The position numbers and the translations under genes were made by a program. Source: Candidatus Dojkabacteria bacterium (GTDB lineage Bacteria > Patescibacteriota > Dojkabacteria > GCA-002793355). From it: a stretch of DNA of 43,006 nucleotides. The notes beneath the pieces were generated by a model, which saw only the letters and a program-made list of their open reading frames with translations, made no database searches and had not been told where the DNA came from. The stretch lies in NCBI GenBank assembly GCA_015485585.1, contig WFTI01000011.1, positions 1-43,006 of the forward strand, read 5' to 3'. Of the stretch, positions 12,540 through 34,385 are shown in pieces. Numbering within the stretch: position 1 is the first letter of the stretch; each line of letters opens with the position of its first letter.

Positions 12540-12755
12540 ATGAACAGTCAAAACAACGATACGGCAAATTCTCATGTTCAAACCATAAAACCGCAAGATG
12601 TAAATACAGGTGATAAGTCACAACTGGCGCTTAAAGAGGATAAAAGTGTATGGAGGGCTATTGAGGATTTTCTCAGGGAATTTCGAATGAAGATGGTAAA
12701 ACCAATTAAGATACCCGTTTATTGGGGAAATCCATTCAGAAAGCAGAGGTACTAG
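12540..12755 (+). CDS. small hypothetical protein (71 aa)
   Basis: ORF preceded by TAGAAT at 6 nt; 3' end overlaps convergent virB4 by 20 nt. Confidence 0.55.
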   Translation: MNSQNNDTANSHVQTIKPQDVNTGDKSQLALKEDKSVWRAIEDFLREFRMKMVKPIKIPVYWGNPFRKQRY

Positions 12756-14619
12756 GAACAGCAGGATTATACGGTTTTGAGTATTCAAGTAGCTTGTCTT
12801 TCGTGAGATTTAAGAGGATATCTTCATTTATCTTTTTAATCTCACCGGGTTTTGAGGTTATAAGCTGATGTTCGAGTTGACTTGAGATCACGCGTAATCC
12901 AAGGTGATATTTTCCGGCGAAGAATAAACCTTCTCCCACCGGAGCATTAGTTAAAAACTCTTTCTCACCCACTGTTAGGTTAAAAAGTTTGGCAAGAAGG
13001 GGAATCGCCGAGGAATCTTGTTTTAGAAGCATCTTCATGCTTGAGTTCGTGATAACAGCTTTTCCATACTTAGAGTTGATAAACTCGTCAACATCTTGGC
13101 TTATTGTAGTTAAACCGAGATTGTATTTACGTGCTCTTTTAGCGATTGAGAAAACAAACTGGGCGGAGTCTTCAAACTGCATAAGGTGCCATGCCTCATC
13201 GATTATTAATAGTTTCTGAACTTCGCGTAACTCTTTGATCTTGCTCCACAGATAATCAAGAATAAGGTACATAGCAAGGGGTCTTAACTCGTCTCTTAGG
13301 TCTCGCACACTAAAGATAACCAGTTGATTGTCAAGCTTAATGGTTGTTGGTTGGTTAAAGACACCAGAGGCACTTCCTACCACATAGGGCAACAGCCGTT
13401 CTGCTAAGCCTTGGGCTTCTTTTTCGGGCATTCCTTTCAGAATCTTATAAAGGTCTTCAAGTAAAGGAGGTTCTTTCGTCCATGTAGACGGATCGTTTGT
13501 TATTCCTTTTTCTCTGTATGTTAAGAAGAGTGCCTTATCAAGGATTGCTGTTTCAAGGGCGTTAAGCTCGGTTCTAAAAAGCAGTCTGAAGAATCTGTGT
13601 AAACTCAATATCTTGTCTTGTAAAAGATTTCTACGTGTTTTTTTAGTAGGATCTGTAAAAAACTCAAACGGATTAATCTTATTATCTGAAGTCGTAGAGA
13701 AGTTTATGTAAGAACCATCAAGTACTTTTGCTAACCTGTCGTATTCATGTTCTGGATCTATAATAAAGCAGTGGACTCCAAGCAACATATATCGAAGGAC
13801 TTGCAGTTTCACATAGTAGCTTTTTCCTGCTCCGCTTGTAGCAAATACTACCTCATTAGCGTTTGGCATTCTAAATCTGTTAAAGATTACAAGTGATCGA
13901 CTATGTAGATTTATTCCGTATAAGATTCCGTCAGGGTGCGCTAGGTGATAGCTTGTGAAAGGGAACATATAAGAGATGGTGGTTGTATCAAGTTCATGGT
14001 GTTTCCGTAAACGATCTTGCATTAGTGGGAGAGTAGAATTAAATCCGTTCTCTGCGTTAAGCAGGGTACTGTTTACCTTAAGTCCGATCGCCGAAAGAAG
14101 AGATCTTAGGGTGATTGTTTTGTTTTTTATTCCTTTTTTGTTTTTGGCTTGGATCCGCATATAAAGGCCTACTTTGAAGAACCGTTCATGTCCTGCTGCA
14201 ATACGGTCGATTAGTTTTTGGGCATCTTCTAACTTAACCTTCTCTTTAGGATCAAGCACTTTACCTTTTTGCATCTGGATCATAAGGCTCGCTTCAAGCT
14301 CAGCTATCTTTTGTCGTAGGGTTTCTAATATCTCATCTACACTGATAGGATAGACGTATAATGTTATTGCTCCTTCTTCTTCTATATTAATCAGGGGATC
14401 TAGAAAATTTGGATTAACAGTACGAGGATAGTCCGTTACATAGAACGTGCGGTTTATCGTACTATTTACTATCACATCTCTGAAATCAATCTCAAGATAA
14501 GATGGTGCAATCAGATCTTTTATGGTTAGCAACGGGGTTTTAGTGTTTAATGCTTCAAAACCTTGTTCGGCTTTGTTATCTTTTTTGGTTTTGCGTAGTT
14601 TTTTAAATATGTTTAGCAC
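12736..14619 (-). CDS. virB4: VirB4/TraC-like conjugative ATPase (T4SS-like), GTG start
   Basis: Walker A FATSGAGKSYYVKL, Walker B LLIIDEAWHLMQ, TISQDVDEF. Confidence 0.9.
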   Translation of the reverse strand: MLNIFKKLRKTKKDNKAEQGFEALNTKTPLLTIKDLIAPSYLEIDFRDVIVNSTINRTFYVTDYPRTVNPNFLDPLINIEEEGAITLYVYPISVDEILETLRQKIAELEASLMIQMQKGKVLDPKEKVKLEDAQKLIDRIAAGHERFFKVGLYMRIQAKNKKGIKNKTITLRSLLSAIGLKVNSTLLNAENGFNSTLPLMQDRLRKHHELDTTTISYMFPFTSYHLAHPDGILYGINLHSRSLVIFNRFRMPNANEVVFATSGAGKSYYVKLQVLRYMLLGVHCFIIDPEHEYDRLAKVLDGSYINFSTTSDNKINPFEFFTDPTKKTRRNLLQDKILSLHRFFRLLFRTELNALETAILDKALFLTYREKGITNDPSTWTKEPPLLEDLYKILKGMPEKEAQGLAERLLPYVVGSASGVFNQPTTIKLDNQLVIFSVRDLRDELRPLAMYLILDYLWSKIKELREVQKLLIIDEAWHLMQFEDSAQFVFSIAKRARKYNLGLTTISQDVDEFINSKYGKAVITNSSMKMLLKQDSSAIPLLAKLFNLTVGEKEFLTNAPVGEGLFFAGKYHLGLRVISSQLEHQLITSKPGEIKKINEDILLNLTKDKLLEYSKPYNPAVPSTSAF

Positions 14620-14626
14620 GTTCAGT

Positions 14627-15256
14627 CTAAAGGTTTATCTTACTACCATCTTCAAAGTTGATCTGCTTTGCTTCAGGGTTGTATATTTTATAAAGCAGTT
14701 TAACTACCTCTTCAGTATTAAGCTCTCTGGCATCAAGCCCCATATGTTTAAAATGGGTGATTATCTGGTTGACCTTGGGGGTAAGATGGTTGTTTACGCT
14801 TTCTAGAAGTACCTGTCTTAAAGAAGCAGGAGCACTACGGTTATATACCGATGTGTGGTGTTTTACGATGATAAAGAATCTTCTATCAAACACTGTCTTA
14901 AACTCAATGATATTTCCTATAAAACGAGCATATATTTTCAAGTAAGCGTTAAGCTTAGGGCTTGTTATTTTCTGTGAAACAGTTTGTAAGAAGTCAAGAT
15001 AATCGTTCATAACGATCTTGTGGTTTTCGATGTATATCTGTATCGGAAAATCAAGCGAATTAATAAAAGTTGCAAATTTTTTTATAAGAAATGATTGTTC
15101 ATCAGGATTAAGTAGCGAGAAGTTTACAGGCTGAACCTGTACGATTTTAAGGTAGTCTCCGTTCTGTAAGATAACGATACCTCCGATTACATCAATAACC
15201 TCAACAAACCCTTGGGTTCGAGATCTGATTCTTAATCGGTTTACTAGTAGTTTCAT
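14627..15256 (-). CDS. VirB4/TraC N-terminal-domain-like protein encoded as a separate ORF
   Basis: 209 aa; directly between PrgI-like gene and the VirB4 ATPase gene; FATFINSLDFPIQIYIENHKI pattern. Confidence 0.65.
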   Translation of the reverse strand: MKLLVNRLRIRSRTQGFVEVIDVIGGIVILQNGDYLKIVQVQPVNFSLLNPDEQSFLIKKFATFINSLDFPIQIYIENHKIVMNDYLDFLQTVSQKITSPKLNAYLKIYARFIGNIIEFKTVFDRRFFIIVKHHTSVYNRSAPASLRQVLLESVNNHLTPKVNQIITHFKHMGLDARELNTEEVVKLLYKIYNPEAKQINFEDGSKINL

Positions 15257-16024
15257 CTATTTGTTCGGTTCTATTTTAATCAGCGGGTATGGTTTTCCTG
15301 TAAAAGGCACTACAAGGGTAGGGTACCTTAGCTGTGGATGGTTTATCTCCACAATGTAGTTGGCAGAGGGTAAGGGTTCATTAAAATATACTATTCCGAA
15401 CCTGTTGGTTTCTCCTACGAAGATTGTTTTACCGTTACTGTTTTTAAGGTTTACTTTTACGTTGGGTTGGGGCTCTCCTGCGTGGTTTATGAGTTTTATA
15501 GCAAGGGTGTTAGGAATAGCGGGAATCTTCACGCTTGTATCAAGATGTTCACTTACAAACTTATCATCTACTTTAACTACTGAGGCTGTACCTTTTGATG
15601 TCATCTGAAGAATCGCTTGTTTTGTGTTAAGTTTAAATTTCGGTTTAAGGTATAGTTTTAGGTAGGTCGGAAAACTTTTTGGTTTGGCTTTCAAACGGTC
15701 AGGATAAGCAATCGTTACATTACTACTTGCAAGACGCCACACCCTCATTAAGGGCACAGAGAAGTATGTGAAGTATCGACTTAATAGAACCCATAATGGA
15801 ATCCCCTCAATTTTTATAAAGATTAGTGCTAGGGGAGAGATAAATGCAATCAAAGCAAGGCTGTATGCTATGGGTAAAGAGATGATCTGTCTTCTTCCTA
15901 GATCTTGAAGAATATACGCTAAGGTGCCTGAGGCTCCGATGACTATAAACTGCTTCCACGTCAGCCCTGCAAGAATCTTAAATTCATATCGTGTTACCTG
16001 TTGTGGCACTACATGTTCTTGCAT
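15257..16024 (-). CDS. PrgI family-like membrane protein with C-terminal Ig-like/carboxypeptidase-regulatory-like domain
   Basis: N-terminal VPQQVTRYEFKILAGLTWKQFIVIGASG plus paired TMs (PrgI-like); C-terminal NHAGEPQPNVKVNLKNSNGKTIFVGETNRFGIVYF. Confidence 0.75.
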   Translation of the reverse strand: MQEHVVPQQVTRYEFKILAGLTWKQFIVIGASGTLAYILQDLGRRQIISLPIAYSLALIAFISPLALIFIKIEGIPLWVLLSRYFTYFSVPLMRVWRLASSNVTIAYPDRLKAKPKSFPTYLKLYLKPKFKLNTKQAILQMTSKGTASVVKVDDKFVSEHLDTSVKIPAIPNTLAIKLINHAGEPQPNVKVNLKNSNGKTIFVGETNRFGIVYFNEPLPSANYIVEINHPQLRYPTLVVPFTGKPYPLIKIEPNK

Positions 16025-26089: not shown

Positions 26090-28357
26090 ATGAGCATTTT
26101 TAAAAAACAGCACAGAAAACAACGGATTTTTTTGTTCACTATTTTTGGTTTAATCTTTATCATATTTGGAATTTTGGCATTCTCGGGCAGTTTTTCAACA
26201 TTAAGCTATATATCGGCTCCTGCGGCAGTTACTAAAGTGTTACGGTACCCTAACCTGTTGGTTCAGCGTTATACCTCGGTAAATAACACCAAGAAAAACG
26301 GTAGATTTGTACCAAATATTCCTGACAAGATTACCCTTTTATTCGGAGCAAAACGTAGGTACGACAAAGAAGAAGAGCTACGCATCAGTGTGGGAGAGTA
26401 CAAAACAGAACAGATTACGCTGGCTCCTGCAGGTAATGCTAAGATCGCTTATTATTTTGTATTTGAGAAACCCACTGAAGATACCGCTAAAATTCCTCTG
26501 CCGTTGACGTTGTCGGGGGTTAATGTTGGGCTTTTTACAGTATCTGCTGATGGCCAAAAATGGGGAATAGTTGCTCCATCGTGTGTAAGTCTTTTAGAAC
26601 AGGGACCAATAACTGGCTTTGATCTTAATGCCTCCCTAGACAAGATGATGTTAGATGAGTCTGTACCTGATCTTAGAACCTACAACTATCCCCTAGCAGG
26701 GGTTATACCCTGTGGAGGCGGTATAGTACATACAGGGCGAGGACCTGAGAATCCTCCCGTTGTTAAAGATGCCGAAGAAGAGGTGCTAGACTGGTATAGA
26801 CGTTTCTCTGAGCTTTTAACTAAGTGCAACGAAAAAAATTGTATTGAGCTTAATGAAGAGTTTAAAAATATTACATACCTTTTCTCTTTAAAACAAGGCA
26901 AGGCAGGAGCATTTGTTCCGCCTGATTATTATAAAGGGGTATATACATCCCCAAGTGGAGAGGTGATATTTCAAGATTTTATCTCTGGTTCCACAGCAAC
27001 AAGTGAATATATCTACCTTAAGCTACCTGATCTAGAGAAGTTTGAGTCAGATGTGGTAGCTTTTGTGTCTACATTCTTAAAAGAGATAGTCATGGGCACT
27101 AATACCCGGGTTAATATTAAGGTGCTTGAACCTCCTTTGAAGAAAAAGAAGATAGTTAGAAAAGACAAATGTTATGCTTGTGAGGTTGAAGAGACAACAG
27201 ATAAAGAGGAAGAAAAACTATATAAACTTATGGCTTTGTCTCCGTTTGTCTTTGATATAAGTAATCAAGATTTCTCAGACGACATAAGGCAGTCTCTGGC
27301 GGCAGGTGAGCTTAGTTTTGATGTTAAAAACTTTGGACTTTTCCAACGTGAGCTTTCTGGCGATGAGAATGCAATTATGTATGATAAGGTTCCCGAAGGT
27401 AGCTACATAACTGTTGGAGTAGATTGGAGCTGTAAAGGCGGCGCATCTGCTTTTAGTGAGCTTATGTCATTGCTAAATTCTTGTAAAAGCCAAAATGTAC
27501 GTTGTAGCATAAATCTGATAGGAGCCTCTAGCCTTGCTAATGCATACACCCTATTAAAGAACGGTAAGATGTGCTTTAAGGGTACATATTCAATCTCTTT
27601 AGGGGTGCCGGTACTGTCTGCAATAACCCTTGATCTTCCTAATGTGACAGTTGCTAAAGGAATGTACTATAACCTAATAGATACCTATTATTCGGGCACT
27701 ATAATTGATCCTTTAAGTGCAGAGATCTTAGCAAGATACAATTACATAGAGCTTTTTTATATCCTTGATAAGTTAAAGTATGACCTTTCATACGATGAGC
27801 TTAGAAAACTAATGCCCAATTTAGTGGCTGATGCCGCAAAGTATTATAAAGAGCCAGCTACCACACTGACACGTTCAAAATTAAGGGAGTTTGCTGATAA
27901 AAAGGCAGAGCAACTAGAGAAAGCTAGACAGTATATATCTCCTGTAATCTTTACCTCTGCTGTAAAGTTCAAACTTTACCCCCGAGTAGAAAAAGGACAT
28001 GTTCTGACAAAACTCTTTAGACCCCTAGGCCCGTATAAACTTAGAGTTTACATGTTTGTAGGAGCTAATCTAAAACAGCTTTTTTCAGCGGCGTCACAAA
28101 GTGAGATTCCTACCTCACCTGAATGTACTCAGACATATGTTGATATCATGCTTAAAAGCTTAGCAGACCGTTACAGTTTCGCACCAGGACATATCCAACT
28201 AGTATTAACACGTGAGGCAAGTAACAAATATCTGGCGATGTTTGAATTTATCGGTGATAGCAGACTTAAAGATATAGAGTATCCTTCAGATATAGAAACA
28301 CTTGAAAAATGTTTTCCAAGTATGGTACCATTCTTTAAGAATGTTGTTGGGTTCTAG
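26090..28357 (+). CDS. large secreted/membrane-anchored Cys-containing protein, unknown function, first of a four-gene membrane-complex block
   Basis: 755 aa, N-terminal TM, TATAAT 8 nt before ATG. Confidence 0.8.
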   Translation: MSIFKKQHRKQRIFLFTIFGLIFIIFGILAFSGSFSTLSYISAPAAVTKVLRYPNLLVQRYTSVNNTKKNGRFVPNIPDKITLLFGAKRRYDKEEELRISVGEYKTEQITLAPAGNAKIAYYFVFEKPTEDTAKIPLPLTLSGVNVGLFTVSADGQKWGIVAPSCVSLLEQGPITGFDLNASLDKMMLDESVPDLRTYNYPLAGVIPCGGGIVHTGRGPENPPVVKDAEEEVLDWYRRFSELLTKCNEKNCIELNEEFKNITYLFSLKQGKAGAFVPPDYYKGVYTSPSGEVIFQDFISGSTATSEYIYLKLPDLEKFESDVVAFVSTFLKEIVMGTNTRVNIKVLEPPLKKKKIVRKDKCYACEVEETTDKEEEKLYKLMALSPFVFDISNQDFSDDIRQSLAAGELSFDVKNFGLFQRELSGDENAIMYDKVPEGSYITVGVDWSCKGGASAFSELMSLLNSCKSQNVRCSINLIGASSLANAYTLLKNGKMCFKGTYSISLGVPVLSAITLDLPNVTVAKGMYYNLIDTYYSGTIIDPLSAEILARYNYIELFYILDKLKYDLSYDELRKLMPNLVADAAKYYKEPATTLTRSKLREFADKKAEQLEKARQYISPVIFTSAVKFKLYPRVEKGHVLTKLFRPLGPYKLRVYMFVGANLKQLFSAASQSEIPTSPECTQTYVDIMLKSLADRYSFAPGHIQLVLTREASNKYLAMFEFIGDSRLKDIEYPSDIETLEKCFPSMVPFFKNVVGF

Positions 28358-28364
28358 CAAAGCA

Positions 28365-29954
28365 ATGCAAAAGACCTTAAAATTTGTTATTTTTTTATTT
28401 TTTGTTTTGTTGTTCTTAACCGCTTTTTCACCGTCTTTGAACGCAGTAACTGTTACCTTACAGATTACTCAAGAGGATATTGAAAGATTAAAGGATTTAC
28501 CGGTATTGCAGAGATTCTATCGATCATGTGAGCTTAGGTCACAGATCGCTCAAGGAAACGAGAATCCAAGCAGATATACCAATACCGATCTTACTTTTTG
28601 TGATATGATAGCAAGCCTCGCAACCACTTTCTATGGAGCTGATACCTTAGGAGATCTTCAGACTCTTAAACAAAACAACCCTGAACTTTATTACCGTTAT
28701 ATGGCTGAGGTTCCGTATTATATGCGGGTAGGATTAGTACAAACCACATACGAAACAACCATGTCTGTCTTTGAGCAACCACTATACTTTAACGCAACAA
28801 GTTTTTATGCACACGAGTTTATTCCTAAACTGATCCAAGATGTTTTTACTACAGTAACCCAAGATGATACAGTATACGCTGCAAGTAATCCTACATACTT
28901 TGTTATTGGAAGTAAACCAAGCAGTGAGAATGCTTATAAAAAGTTAAACGAAGTTGTCGGTAAATTCTGGCTTGGGGTCTTTAAACTTACAACCGGTCTC
29001 TTTGTGCTTGCAATGATGGTAGCAGGTATCATGATGATAGTAAACCGCCAGATAGGAGGGCAGACCCCTATCACCATCATGATGGTGGTACGTAACGCCC
29101 TGATCGGGTATGTAGGAGCCTTCTTAAGCTTTGGAATAGCAGCTTTTTTCTTCAATCTTACAAAGTTTTTTATCTTGTTACAAGGTAAGATGGTTGAAGG
29201 AGTCTATGAGCAGGTTGTGGGTACCTTGCCACAACCACAGCCATATAATGCTAGCTTTTTTAAATCTTTGGATAAGAATTTAGTCGTCATAGCATATCCA
29301 GGGGGAAGTATGCAGCTTTATAACTTTTTTATGAAGGGGATTGTTGAATTAAATTATGACCAAGCGTCTGAATTCTTAGAAGAATTATTTGGACCCAAGG
29401 CTATGAAGACACGAGTAGGAAAAATCCTAATAAGAGTAGGTGGTTTTATATTAGGAATTTTTTATGCTATTGCCTTCTTATTCTCTCTTATACGTTTGTT
29501 GGTGTTTATCATCAAAACTCTTTTTATGATGATAATAGATACAATCTTTGCTCCTCTTATATTTCTTGCAGGTTCTTTACCTGGGCGGGAAAGTACTATT
29601 ACACTGTGGATGAAACGGATGTTTACCCGTTCACTTGCTCCTGCTGTTGCATATCTCTTGGTGAATTTAGGAATAACATTTTTGTTGGTACCATTATTGG
29701 CTGGCAGTAAGTCAATAGGAAATATCGAAACATTTTCAGTGGGGGTTATACCTCAAGTGGGATGGGGGACAGCTACGTTAATGGGGATTATCAATCTGGG
29801 GGCAATTATTATGCTAGTCCTCATCAACCTCGCCGCAAGTGCCGATAAGATCTTACAAGAGATGTTCGGTATCCAAGAGACAGCAGTAAGTAAGACTGCG
29901 TTGGCGGCATTACAGAAGGTTCCGATCGTTGGAAGATTCGCCAAGAACGGGTAA
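28365..29954 (+). CDS. VirB6/TrbL-like polytopic membrane protein with signal peptide
   Basis: ORF track starts at 28302, but ATG 28365 gives signal peptide MQKTLKFVIFLFFVLLFLTAFSPSLNA; multiple TMs in the VirB6-like order. Confidence 0.72.
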   Translation: MQKTLKFVIFLFFVLLFLTAFSPSLNAVTVTLQITQEDIERLKDLPVLQRFYRSCELRSQIAQGNENPSRYTNTDLTFCDMIASLATTFYGADTLGDLQTLKQNNPELYYRYMAEVPYYMRVGLVQTTYETTMSVFEQPLYFNATSFYAHEFIPKLIQDVFTTVTQDDTVYAASNPTYFVIGSKPSSENAYKKLNEVVGKFWLGVFKLTTGLFVLAMMVAGIMMIVNRQIGGQTPITIMMVVRNALIGYVGAFLSFGIAAFFFNLTKFFILLQGKMVEGVYEQVVGTLPQPQPYNASFFKSLDKNLVVIAYPGGSMQLYNFFMKGIVELNYDQASEFLEELFGPKAMKTRVGKILIRVGGFILGIFYAIAFLFSLIRLLVFIIKTLFMMIIDTIFAPLIFLAGSLPGRESTITLWMKRMFTRSLAPAVAYLLVNLGITFLLVPLLAGSKSIGNIETFSVGVIPQVGWGTATLMGIINLGAIIMLVLINLAASADKILQEMFGIQETAVSKTALAALQKVPIVGRFAKNG

Positions 29955-29973
29955 ACAGGTATAATCTTGGTAT

Positions 29974-32900
29974 ATGGCTGTCCCTACTAAAAATCAACCA
30001 AGTGTTACCGATCTGTTGGTTGCTTTAGTTTCATTAGGTGTGGTGCAAGCCCCTGAACTTTCTGGTAAGGGGGTACCTAAAGCGACTCCTTGGTTAGGGT
30101 TTGATACCATAACAGGCTCAGTAGCCGCAGGAATTACAGCAGGGCTTACTACGGCTTTAGCTGATTTTCCTCAACAATTGTACGAAACAGTGGTTACCTC
30201 TGAACTAGATGAAAGGCACAAAAGGGTATATCTTGCAAAAGATCTTGCTCCTTGGGCAGATCGTCTAAGAGCATGGGCACAAAAAGAGGGGCGTATGCCA
30301 CAGGTTGCTTATCTTCAGAGTAAATGGGCATTACCTACGGCAGCCAAACTTGCTCAGGTACAAGGTATAGCCAAGGTATATGGAGGTATTAAGATCGCTC
30401 CCAAAGATATATGGACCCTGTTTGAAAATCCTAATGCGATGGCTGAGATTCTTGATACAAAGGTTCTCCTTCCTTTCTTGCGTGATATGAGAAGAAGACA
30501 GCTTGCAGCAACATTAGATAGAGTGGGGGCTTCATTAGCTTTTAGGCTGGGAGTTCGCTCAGGGCAGTTTTTTAAAGAGCATAAGATTCCTCTAAGTTTT
30601 GTTACATGGGCGATGGCAAACAAGGTAGCCTCTGCTACTACCCGTCCTTTTGAGAATATAAGCCGTGCAATCTCAAGGCTATTAAGAGACGACGTCAAAC
30701 CTCCTCGAGAGTTTTTGAAGAAAGAACTAAGGGCAATATTGGGTGATGGAGCGTTAGTTGCCTTACGCGAGCTAGAGGGCGAACTTGCCAGGCTAAAAAA
30801 AGAACAGATTAAACGTGAAAGTATTGAGAACCTAATACGCAGAAAGTTAGAAGGTGCTGTCAAGAATTTAAGGTGGAACGAGAAAGAGGTTAAAGACTTT
30901 TTCTCTAATCTGACAGACTTTTATCTCCTCTCAGAAGAGGTTCGTAGAGCTCCTCTTGATGAAAGATCAGACCCTATAAGAAGGCGATTAGTAGATAAGG
31001 CATTCGAAACAGCTATAGGAGCATATGAGATAGAGTCAAGATATACTCCCACAAATATTAGTAATTTTAAAGACCGCGCCGAGAACCTCAAAAAAGCTCA
31101 ACGTAAAATAGATGAGCATGCTCTTCATCTTTTAAGTGAGCCAGCTACACGAAAAGGAATAAGTTTGAGTAAGATCTATGCCCAGTATTCATTGCTTAAA
31201 GCCTTTTCAGAGAGTAATGTTCCAAAGCTAAAAGATCCTATTGAATGGTTAAAAACCTTTGCTTTGGGGGGTAATAACTTTTTTCTTCTTGCTGGGGTTG
31301 ACATCGGACTTGCAGGTCCAGGTATTGGAGATTTAGCAGGAGTATTAGATGGGTTATATAAGGGCCTTCAGATAGAAGACCGTAGGGAACTAGAAAAATT
31401 TATGAAAAGTTTTGTCACCTCATGGAAGGGCCTTTTTGGCTCTCTTGATGATGAAACCCGAGAGATCCTTTTACAAGATATCAATCTCAGAGCTATTTTA
31501 GAGGGAAATATCGATTCCAGCCAATTGTTACAATATGTAGCGGATATAAGAGAGAAATACAGATATGTTTACGATTCTGCTGGGGGAAATCCAGACATGG
31601 TGAAAACCCTTGATCCGTTCTTTGCAAACATCAAGGTAGCACGTTTCTCATATATGGCAGGTGTTCTGCATCCAGTTGCATTTGTAAAACACTTTTTAAC
31701 AGGTGAACTACCTTATTACCTTTTTTACATGGGAACAGGTTTTGGTGATCCGATTATTATTCAAGCCTTAGCAAGCGGGGCAGGTGATGAGACTATTATG
31801 CGTTTACTTTTGCAAAGATTCGGAAAAATGGAATCAAAGGTCCTTTGGTCTCTATTTCGTCTCGGACGTCGTTTAAGCCACTCCAATTTTTATCTAAAAT
31901 ACGCAAAATTTACCAAATGGATCGGTAAAGGTATCTACTTTATAAGAAGCCCTCATATGGCTTTGTTTGAACAGTATAACAAACTAGTGGCTTTAGGTAT
32001 CGGCAAAATTAGAGCAGGCTTATCTAAACTTGCAGCAAAGACAGGACTTAAGAAACTTGGCCAAAAACTAGCAGGAACCCTTATAGGTAAGCTTTTTAAA
32101 GGAGCCCTTGCCCTGGTTAGTAACGTTGCGTGGATCGTATATTTTGTTCTAAACTTTCTCACAGGAGGATTATTAGATCGAATCCTCTTAAATATTATCT
32201 TTTTTGCGATTCTTCTTACAATATTTTTACCTATCGTTTTTATACTGTATCTTTGGTCGTTTTTTTCAGTCCCCACAGGAAGAGCAGCATACGCCACTTT
32301 GCCCGTAACTTCTCGGCAGATTATGATAGGTTCTACAAATACCTCACCTTGGGCGTATGAGAACGATGAATCAGTAATCCTTCTTTCTAGCGGAGAACGG
32401 TACTATATAAACTTCTCTAAAAAAGCGAGTGCGTGTTTAAGTACTCGCGGTTGTAAGCCTGTTACTGATGGCTATTCAAATGACAAAGTTAAAAGATTCT
32501 TTAAACTCGACTATGTATATGAACAATCCGGCGGTCAGATAACATCAATGAATTATTCTTTCAACGTACCCCATACATGGCGTATGCCTTCTTTTATAAA
32601 AGGACGCTGTTATCTACCTCTACCAACCGGTACAAAACCCATAATAGTAATCCATAGCGCTGGAGCAGAGGCGCATTATAAGGGGGTTGATGTAGAAGAG
32701 GCTACCTTTTTTGCGGCAGTTAAATATCACCATAATAAACCTGCCTACGGACTTTTACAGTACTCGATGGTTCTTCTCCCTAAGAAGAACAAACTGGTAC
32801 TCGCTACAAAAGATGCTTTATCGCGGAGATCGTGTGCAGAGTTTTATACACGGGAAAGACCCGTAGTATCTGTAATGTTACCTGCAAACTATGACCTTCG

Positions 32901-33144
32901 ACCTCCTACTGCGTTAGAGATAGAGAGGCTTGCAAAATTAGTAGCTGCGTTAGTTGCTACATATTATGATCCGTCTGAGTGGGGAGACATCAACTGGTTA
33001 AATAATGTGGCAAGATTTCATCGCGAACAGAACCTGATTGAGTTGGGAAATCCTATTAAAACCTGTCCAGGGAAAAAGTTTACTCCTGAGCTAAAACAGC
33101 AGATGCTTCAGAAAGCCCTGTCATATCTTAATGAGTTTAAATAG
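29974..33144 (+). CDS. 1056-aa membrane protein: long helical N-terminal region, two TMs, C-terminal N-acetylmuramoyl-L-alanine amidase (Amidase_2/PGRP)-like domain
   Basis: C-terminus: KPIIVIHSAG ... PVVSVMLPANYDLRPPTALEIERLAKLVAALVATYY ... ARFHREQN ... TCPGKKFTPELKQQML (His/His/Cys zinc-ligand pattern). Confidence 0.7.
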   Translation: MAVPTKNQPSVTDLLVALVSLGVVQAPELSGKGVPKATPWLGFDTITGSVAAGITAGLTTALADFPQQLYETVVTSELDERHKRVYLAKDLAPWADRLRAWAQKEGRMPQVAYLQSKWALPTAAKLAQVQGIAKVYGGIKIAPKDIWTLFENPNAMAEILDTKVLLPFLRDMRRRQLAATLDRVGASLAFRLGVRSGQFFKEHKIPLSFVTWAMANKVASATTRPFENISRAISRLLRDDVKPPREFLKKELRAILGDGALVALRELEGELARLKKEQIKRESIENLIRRKLEGAVKNLRWNEKEVKDFFSNLTDFYLLSEEVRRAPLDERSDPIRRRLVDKAFETAIGAYEIESRYTPTNISNFKDRAENLKKAQRKIDEHALHLLSEPATRKGISLSKIYAQYSLLKAFSESNVPKLKDPIEWLKTFALGGNNFFLLAGVDIGLAGPGIGDLAGVLDGLYKGLQIEDRRELEKFMKSFVTSWKGLFGSLDDETREILLQDINLRAILEGNIDSSQLLQYVADIREKYRYVYDSAGGNPDMVKTLDPFFANIKVARFSYMAGVLHPVAFVKHFLTGELPYYLFYMGTGFGDPIIIQALASGAGDETIMRLLLQRFGKMESKVLWSLFRLGRRLSHSNFYLKYAKFTKWIGKGIYFIRSPHMALFEQYNKLVALGIGKIRAGLSKLAAKTGLKKLGQKLAGTLIGKLFKGALALVSNVAWIVYFVLNFLTGGLLDRILLNIIFFAILLTIFLPIVFILYLWSFFSVPTGRAAYATLPVTSRQIMIGSTNTSPWAYENDESVILLSSGERYYINFSKKASACLSTRGCKPVTDGYSNDKVKRFFKLDYVYEQSGGQITSMNYSFNVPHTWRMPSFIKGRCYLPLPTGTKPIIVIHSAGAEAHYKGVDVEEATFFAAVKYHHNKPAYGLLQYSMVLLPKKNKLVLATKDALSRRSCAEFYTRERPVVSVMLPANYDLRPPTALEIERLAKLVAALVATYYDPSEWGDINWLNNVARFHREQNLIELGNPIKTCPGKKFTPELKQQMLQKALSYLNEFK

Positions 33145-33164
33145 TTTAATGTTAGAATAAAGTA

Positions 33165-34385
33165 ATGTTAAAGCAAAAAGATACAAGGCGTCGGTTTAAA
33201 ACCTTTTTAATAGTAGGATTATTCTTAACTTTCGCAACCTTTTTAGCTTCGTTAGTCTTTCTTAATTCTTATGTATTAAAATCTCAAGAATCTAAAAATA
33301 CCTTACAGGTAGATAAACCTGCGCCTTTTTTGTTAAACTGTGATGCTAATTACATAACCCCTTTACCTGTTACAACTGGGGTAGTAGTTCCGATCTATAT
33401 GCGTACCTTTGCAAGAATGCTTCCTCTAGAAGAGCAGATAAAATATCTGGTATATGAGCAGCTTATAAGGAATCACTCTAATCTGTTTCCATATAATTAT
33501 CTGGTAGCATCAGGAAAGATTCAAAGGTTCTATTGTGATAAAAATGACTTTGTTTTTAAGGGTTTAGAGGGACTTCCTAAAGGAGCCGTAGTAATCGGAG
33601 TTTTAGACTTTAATGAAAAGACTCAAGATGCTCTAAAACAGCTTGTTGATGAATACAAGCTAAGCAGATTACTTCAAGGGAAAATAGAATATACTCAAAA
33701 AGAAGAAGCCAGAAAAGTTCCAGTATTGCGTTTAGATGGAGAATGCAGGTTTAACATATGTGAAGGTATTAAACTATATGAGAACGGCCTTGCTTTGCGT
33801 GAGTATACAGTAAAGCTTCTTAAGGTCGAATACCCCAAAGAGGTGATTAATCCTTCAGAGGTCTCGATCAAGGTTGTGGTTGAGAATACAAGTGGATACG
33901 TTATTCCTGATGCATCTACACTTGCTCTTACTATTAAAGAGGTCTCTAATAAGCCGATTCCAGATCTGTATTCAGAATCGTGGGAAAGTTTAAAAAGAGT
34001 TGTCACACTAAATGAGACAGCTATACCAGCATCAAGCAAGATTTCTAAAGAATTTAAGGTGGGTCCGTTTCTAAAACCTGCTACATTGTCATCAACCTTT
34101 GCAGTTTTTATAGGAGATCAAGAGATACCAAACACACGTTTTACAGTTACCATCACCTTTAAAAAGGGAGATTACAAACTTGGGGTGATCTACTCAGATC
34201 AATACTCCTTTGCCAACGTGCGTTCGGCTCCATCATTTGATTCAGAGGTGCTCTTTAAACTTGATGTAGGAGATTATGTAATATGGCAGAAACAAGAAGG
34301 AGCTTGGGTCTATATCAAGACGGTCGATGGCCGTGAGGGTTGGGTTTATCGCCGTCTAATTCGTGAGTATAGGGTTTCAGAGTAA
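33165..34385 (+). CDS. membrane-anchored protein with C-terminal bacterial SH3 domain
   Basis: N-terminal TM; C-terminal FANVRSAPSFDSEVLFKLDVGDYVIWQKQEGAWVYIKTVDGREGWVYRRLI. Confidence 0.85.
   Translation: MLKQKDTRRRFKTFLIVGLFLTFATFLASLVFLNSYVLKSQESKNTLQVDKPAPFLLNCDANYITPLPVTTGVVVPIYMRTFARMLPLEEQIKYLVYEQLIRNHSNLFPYNYLVASGKIQRFYCDKNDFVFKGLEGLPKGAVVIGVLDFNEKTQDALKQLVDEYKLSRLLQGKIEYTQKEEARKVPVLRLDGECRFNICEGIKLYENGLALREYTVKLLKVEYPKEVINPSEVSIKVVVENTSGYVIPDASTLALTIKEVSNKPIPDLYSESWESLKRVVTLNETAIPASSKISKEFKVGPFLKPATLSSTFAVFIGDQEIPNTRFTVTITFKKGDYKLGVIYSDQYSFANVRSAPSFDSEVLFKLDVGDYVIWQKQEGAWVYIKTVDGREGWVYRRLIREYRVSE

Follow-up and report, generated by a model that had tools for sequence, protein, structure and literature searches.

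Four adjacent genes on the forward strand of a contig from an ultrasmall bacterium of the Dojkabacteria (source genome 598 kb, 91% complete) raise the question of whether they specify an envelope machine of their own or part of a system that is already known. An earlier note, made from the sequence of this contig, favored the first and proposed an undescribed apparatus composed of a secreted cysteine-containing protein, a VirB6-like channel, a transmembrane (TM) protein ending in an amidase and a wall-binding SH3 protein. Chromosomal type IV secretion systems (T4SSs) of Patescibacteria have already been described, and in several of their classes VirB1 and VirB6 were found to be rare or to have diverged extremely far, which had left the wall-crossing step of these T4SSs open; the main text of this survey does not name Dojkabacteria (PMC12102498). 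Here we analyze the four genes within the whole stretch of 43,006 nucleotides (assembly GCA_015485585.1, contig WFTI01000011.1), referred to as the window, and compare them with related loci.

Table 1. Features of the window discussed in the text.
Feature	Position	Strand	Remarks
VirB4 ATPase, CD1110 family	12736..14619	-	NF045971 E=1.6e-105, above cut-off; about 12-14 kb from the block
TrsD-like gene, in place of the VirB4 N-terminal part	14627..15256	-	No Pfam match; in other Patescibacteria its profile picks out the gene immediately before VirB4
PrgI (VirB3-like)	15257..16024	-	PrgI E=6e-8
Gene 1	26090..28357	+	755 aa; one N-terminal TM, 12 Cys; genus-restricted; ORF open
Gene 2, VirB6-like polytopic membrane protein	28365..29954	+	N-terminal signal/TM; ORF 28302-29954 if TTG start
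Gene 3, putative membrane-tethered wall hydrolase, PrgK/VirB1-like topology	29974..33144	+	1056 aa
Gene 3, membrane segments	32110..32283	+	Residues ~713-770; no Cys before, 5 Cys after
Gene 3, C-terminal Amidase_2-like domain	32629..33129	+	Residues ~886-1052; putative Zn ligands H894, H1016, C1031; putative catalytic K1029
Gene 4, predicted secreted SH3 protein	33165..34385	+	406 aa
Gene 4, bacterial SH3 domain	34209..34358	+	Residues 349-398; SH3_3 E=1.2e-12

The gene block and the secretion genes of the window

All four frames described in the earlier note are open and follow one another on the forward strand (Table 1). Gene 2 probably starts at the ATG at 28365 rather than the TTG at 28302, since the latter would make it overlap gene 1 by 56 bases. 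The -10 boxes at leaderless spacing reported before genes 1, 3 and 4 are present, but they do not mark the block. A 5/6 match to TATAAT lies 11-14 nt 5' of the start codon in 15 of the 35 window genes, far above its frequency at other distances, and such boxes are therefore widespread among the genes of the window.

The window also encodes a monoderm-class VirB4 together with PrgI, the pair that identifies a T4SS of the MPF_FATA type. This VirB4 is 24% identical to PrgJ of pCF10 over 528 aa (E=9e-41), and the genome has two TraG/VirD4-type ATPases. In its PrgI, TrsD-like gene, CD1110-family VirB4, VirB2-like pilins and chromosomal location the system resembles the T4SSs of other Patescibacteria; it differs from those surveyed in that VirB6 and the hydrolase are set apart in a block of their own, together with an SH3 partner. 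Type IV pilus genes occupy the gap between this block and virB4 in the window, and in 20 loci of the class we found no virB4 within ~9 kb of the block. With PrgI, TrsD-like and VirB4 genes in the same window, we read the block as a module of the known patescibacterial T4SS and no longer as an undescribed envelope machine.

Two further features of this system were seen. Five T4SS_pilin genes lie in small arrays elsewhere in the genome (G000:C21, G000:C24), and the PrgI of the window carries an extra C-terminal domain with a weak match to the MG3 domain of bacterial alpha-2-macroglobulin (bMG3, E=2e-4).

Gene 2 and its genomic context

The earlier note called gene 2 VirB6-like, a call that is weak from its sequence but is supported by where its relatives are found. 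The protein has 5-7 hydrophobic segments. Its family matches TrbL weakly, in 1 of 26 members (E=0.003), and PrgH weakly by hhalign (31%, score 36 vs 25 when shuffled). A VirB6 protein query returned no match in the named genomes. A structural model (pLDDT 47) has DotA as its top fold match (E=0.24) and R388 TrwI/VirB6 several times (E about 1.4), none of them significant. A profile search identified family members in 76 of 86 genomes of the class and in 95 of 287 sampled genomes of the phylum. Outside the class, T4SS pilin arrays and/or VirB4 lie no more than ~10 kb from the gene at 18 of 20 sampled loci, and 13 of these 18 have VirB4 or TrsD. It is mainly this context that supports the assignment of gene 2 as VirB6. 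The VirB6-like region of one Dojkabacteria family is contained in open frames of 860-965 aa (L098, G019, G028, G036, G043, G047, G053), which suggests extended VirB6 proteins.

The separation of the block from virB4 in Dojkabacteria could indicate that a VirB6-derived channel and a wall enzyme have become detached from VirB4 and PrgI and now serve another export or attachment role, independent of the T4SS. Several genomes have VirB6 paralogues, some of 860-965 aa, which would fit such a history. We consider it unlikely, however, as members of this VirB6 family are part of T4SS clusters in other classes, we saw neither a second VirB4-like ATPase nor any other motor in the block, and T4SS pilins, PrgI and VirB4 are all still present in the genome. 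We favor a model in which genes 2-4 are the wall-crossing module of a chromosomal MPF_FATA-like T4SS of Dojkabacteria, with the outer hydrolase of gene 3 as an interchangeable cassette. On the observations made here, which concern the VirB6 family and its context, gene order, cysteine asymmetry and cassette replacement, we judge this model to be probable.

Conservation of the module

The proposal that a VirB6-like channel forms a unit with a wall hydrolase of its own and a wall-binding SH3 protein is borne out by gene order. The trio of VirB6, long protein and SH3 protein lies beside UvrD in 11 loci from four Dojkabacteria families (f1, f5, f15 and f17), a count that includes the window and a locus (G004) in which two ORFs together make up the long protein. 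Genomes of the window's own family, f1, have the order VirB6-like protein, long TM protein, SH3 protein and UvrD, whole or in part; in G001, genes 3 and 4 are together and VirB6 is on a different contig. In f14 and f3 an M23 protein follows VirB6, and no SH3 gene was recognized. No hydrolase was recognized beside VirB6 in the other sampled families of the class.

Gene 1, the secreted Cys protein of the earlier note, has an N-terminal TM and 12 Cys, but it was found only within the genus. Its one convincing homologue is in G001 (31-35% identity), and no homology was found to the genes that precede VirB6 in other families or to a ~345-aa gene discussed below. Gene 1 is thus probably not a core part of the module, and the supposed four-gene unit is really one of three genes that are kept together.

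A ~345-aa protein with a single TM follows the wall hydrolase in Dojkabacteria of f5, f14 and f17 and in other Patescibacteria (L086:12331-13413, L087:12964-14019, L221:6105-7142, L228:6110-7120), and these proteins are homologous (hhalign 97%). The gene was not found in the window, and the protein has no PDB match. It is a candidate for the missing VirB8, because it occupies the same place as PrgL (VirB8-like) after PrgK in pCF10.

Architecture of gene 3

The two adjacent TMs reported for the 1056-aa product of gene 3 correspond to hydrophobic segments that we also see (Table 1). Cysteines are distributed asymmetrically about the main TM: 12 of 13 orthologues have none before it and the remaining one has a single Cys, with 5 to 21 per protein after it. 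From this asymmetry and the types of enzyme involved, we infer that the N-terminus is cytoplasmic and the C-terminus outside, as in PrgK. The number of TM helices is uncertain, and a plain two-helix hairpin would place the C-terminus inside, in contradiction to this topology.

PrgK of pCF10, a VirB1-like protein with LytM-SLT/MUR-CHAP domains, has a cytoplasmic N-terminal domain, a membrane anchor and one or more outer wall-hydrolase domains (PMC11323569). Gene 3 appears to share this plan, but its cytoplasmic part is much longer and non-homologous (hhalign 0.4%, below shuffles), it carries a single Amidase_2-like cassette (elsewhere M23, GH25+M23 or SLT+CHAP), and it follows virB6 rather than virB4. 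Pfam finds no SLT/MUR or CHAP catalytic domain in gene 3, and its cytoplasmic part has no homology to the hydrolases encoded after virB4 in other classes. Gene 3 would act like a VirB1, yet we do not class it as a VirB1 homologue.

Tape-measure proteins of phages share the plan of a long helical protein with a TM and a wall hydrolase, and gene 3 could in principle be a tape-measure or tail-lysin protein captured beside VirB6. Endolysin PHROGs do match the GH25 and M23 cassettes of relatives, but neither gene 3 nor its cytoplasmic part has a PHROG match, no tail genes lie nearby, and the gene is conserved with VirB6 and UvrD over four families. After the PHROGs comparison we rejected this origin as extremely improbable.

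A probable, divergent Amidase_2-like cassette

The C-terminal Amidase_2 domain of the earlier note receives support from a custom profile, from shuffled controls and from the putative ligand positions, but not from standard databases. The gene 3 C-terminus has no Pfam, NCBIfam or PDB sequence match, and Amidase_2 stays below the Pfam cut-off. Using a profile built from Patescibacteria proteins found with PF01510, gene 3 ranked first among 139 long frames of the window and six related loci (E=0.058). By hhalign the C-terminus scored 28-30 against Amidase_2, compared with a maximum of 16.7 among 100 shuffles. Like the zinc amidases of the Amidase_2 family (PF01510), gene 3 has the expected metal-ligand positions filled (H894, H1016, C1031), a lysine (K1029) two residues before the cysteine and a collinear profile match; unlike them, it has 15 residues between the second histidine and the cysteine, owing to an apparent insertion. 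The match is remote and rests on one sequence, since only the window C-terminus scores against Amidase_2 and that of no relative does. An AlphaFold prediction of the C-terminal part, made with no alignment, reached a pLDDT of 36. We conclude that the C-terminus is likely, though not proven, to be a very divergent Amidase_2-like domain and a putative zinc amidase.

Two other candidate relationships were discarded. A PDB sequence match of the C-terminus to sterol 12-alpha-hydroxylase is unrelated and due to chance, and a search of 380 genomes for other relatives gave one chance match inside an apparent glycosyltransferase.

Exchange of the hydrolase among relatives

In 11 related Dojkabacteria the gene 3 C-terminus scores as M23 (leave-one-out 47-181 bits), and all 11 have the HxH motif with an upstream His...Asp. 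Pfam recognizes Peptidase_M23 in two of the gene 3 relatives (E=1e-4 and 1e-9), and in one relative a GH25 lysozyme domain is added to M23 (E=2.6e-46). The gene 3 relative in G003 scores for neither M23 nor GH25 and contains HELTH, an HExxH zincin-like motif. Proteins of f1 and f5 show homology in their N-terminal parts (hhalign 94%, score 71 vs 17 when shuffled). By these domain matches, the hydrolase of gene 3 is replaced by different wall enzymes among relatives; with the N-terminal and TM parts still homologous between f1 and f5, the enzyme has been exchanged on a scaffold that is retained.

A comparable layout exists in other Patescibacteria, where in most of the sampled genomes a TM protein directly after virB4 is free of Cys before its TM and carries the hydrolase after it. 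This is also the place of the PrgK gene, which directly follows that of VirB4 (PrgJ) in pCF10. The hydrolase is M23 in five cases (Pfam E=1e-14 to 1e-20), in one a CHAP domain (E=2.6e-12) with an SLT-like stretch seen by eye, and in one a weak SLT match with HExxH. In S. epibionticum the hydrolases after virB4 were reported to be essential (PMC10633639).

Related arrangements were also noted. Two distant T4SS loci (L018:6638-9574, L229:7779-9806) carry HExxH zincin-like motifs (HELTH or HELSH) in the position of the wall hydrolase, a part that has no Pfam match. In another Patescibacterium (L039, G105:C2) a 340-aa protein has pilin-like TM segments followed by an Amidase_2 domain, possibly a fusion of a VirB2-like pilin and an amidase.

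Gene 4

The SH3 domain claimed for gene 4 is confirmed by Pfam SH3_3 at 48.3 bits, against a cut-off of 27, and SH3_3 is matched in 12 of 12 members of the group. In relatives from f5, f15 and f17, Amidase_2 matches the stretch that precedes the Ig-like and SH3 regions, both by the custom profile (E=6e-12 to 1e-6) and by hhalign (97%, score 71 vs 16 for shuffled columns); with Pfam Amidase_2 the better of two members reaches E=1e-4. The zinc-binding histidines are absent from the alignment of this front part to Amidase_2. The front half of these relatives has the appearance of an inactive amidase that serves in wall binding, and in f1, including the window, it has diverged beyond detection. 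Gene 4 resembles bacterial SH3_3 wall-binding proteins in its clear C-terminal SH3_3 domain and departs from them in the degenerate Amidase_2-like domain (clear in related families) and Ig-like region that would precede it.

A model for wall crossing and its target

We envision a scenario in which gene 2 (VirB6) forms an inner-membrane channel subunit and gene 3, a VirB1/PrgK-type protein, cuts the wall locally from its membrane anchor so that the apparatus and a VirB2-like pilus can pass. The gene 4 product, a secreted SH3 (pseudo-amidase) protein, would bind the wall and probably position or regulate the cutter. In the window, the cassette would be an Amidase_2-like zinc amidase instead of the usual M23 endopeptidase. 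The model presumes an active enzyme with its C-terminus outside, a physical complex and the cell's own wall, not that of a host, as the target; opening this wall for the T4SS is the likely job, and action on a host wall is possible.

If the cassette were instead aimed at the host, the machine would penetrate or feed on a host bacterium, with the enzyme matched to the chemistry of the host wall. The cassettes of close relatives do differ in bond specificity (endopeptidase, muramidase, amidase, zincin), and a T4SS is essential for epibiotic growth of a Saccharibacterium (PMC10633639). However, the enzyme would be anchored in the membrane of its own cell, as is PrgK, an enzyme that remodels the wall of the donor; the window organism has no known host; and domain turnover alone also accounts for the variety of cassettes. 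We therefore regard a host-directed cassette as quite unlikely, and retain the cell's own wall as the favored target. An epibiotic role of the block, as the earlier note envisaged, may be conjectured.

A broader idea is that the wall cutter of patescibacterial T4SSs is modular, with a conserved scaffold in the membrane that bears exchangeable enzymes (M23, GH25, SLT, CHAP, zincin, amidase) suited to the wall of the partner cell, and with a pseudo-amidase/SH3 wall reader to guide it. This generalization is doubtful; if true, the machine would breach the host wall besides its own.

The VirB6 family described here supplies a candidate channel subunit across most Dojkabacteria genomes and about a third of those sampled in the phylum. 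Our findings also suggest that a wall-cutting component exists but, owing to the exchange of its catalytic cassette, escapes searches with one domain. This brings both the crossing of the wall and a possible relation of cassette to host within reach of direct tests. In the open-licence literature searched, we found no description of this Dojkabacteria block, of a cutter of the Amidase_2 type in the position of a VirB1-like protein, or of cassettes being exchanged while the scaffold is retained.

Additional observations

The enrichment of TATAAT-like sequences 11-14 nt before start codons gives many window genes the appearance of being leaderless. Leaving aside one contig, the nearest named relatives of the window's polynucleotide phosphorylase come from metagenome-assembled genomes of Candidatus Dojkabacteria (73%, 55% and 54% identity), on which basis the class is taken as Dojkabacteria. 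The contig set aside, from a metagenome-assembled genome labelled Anaerolineales (WFVP01000023.1, L109), encodes a protein 98% identical to the polynucleotide phosphorylase of the window, and is probably a misbinned contig from a near relative of the window organism.
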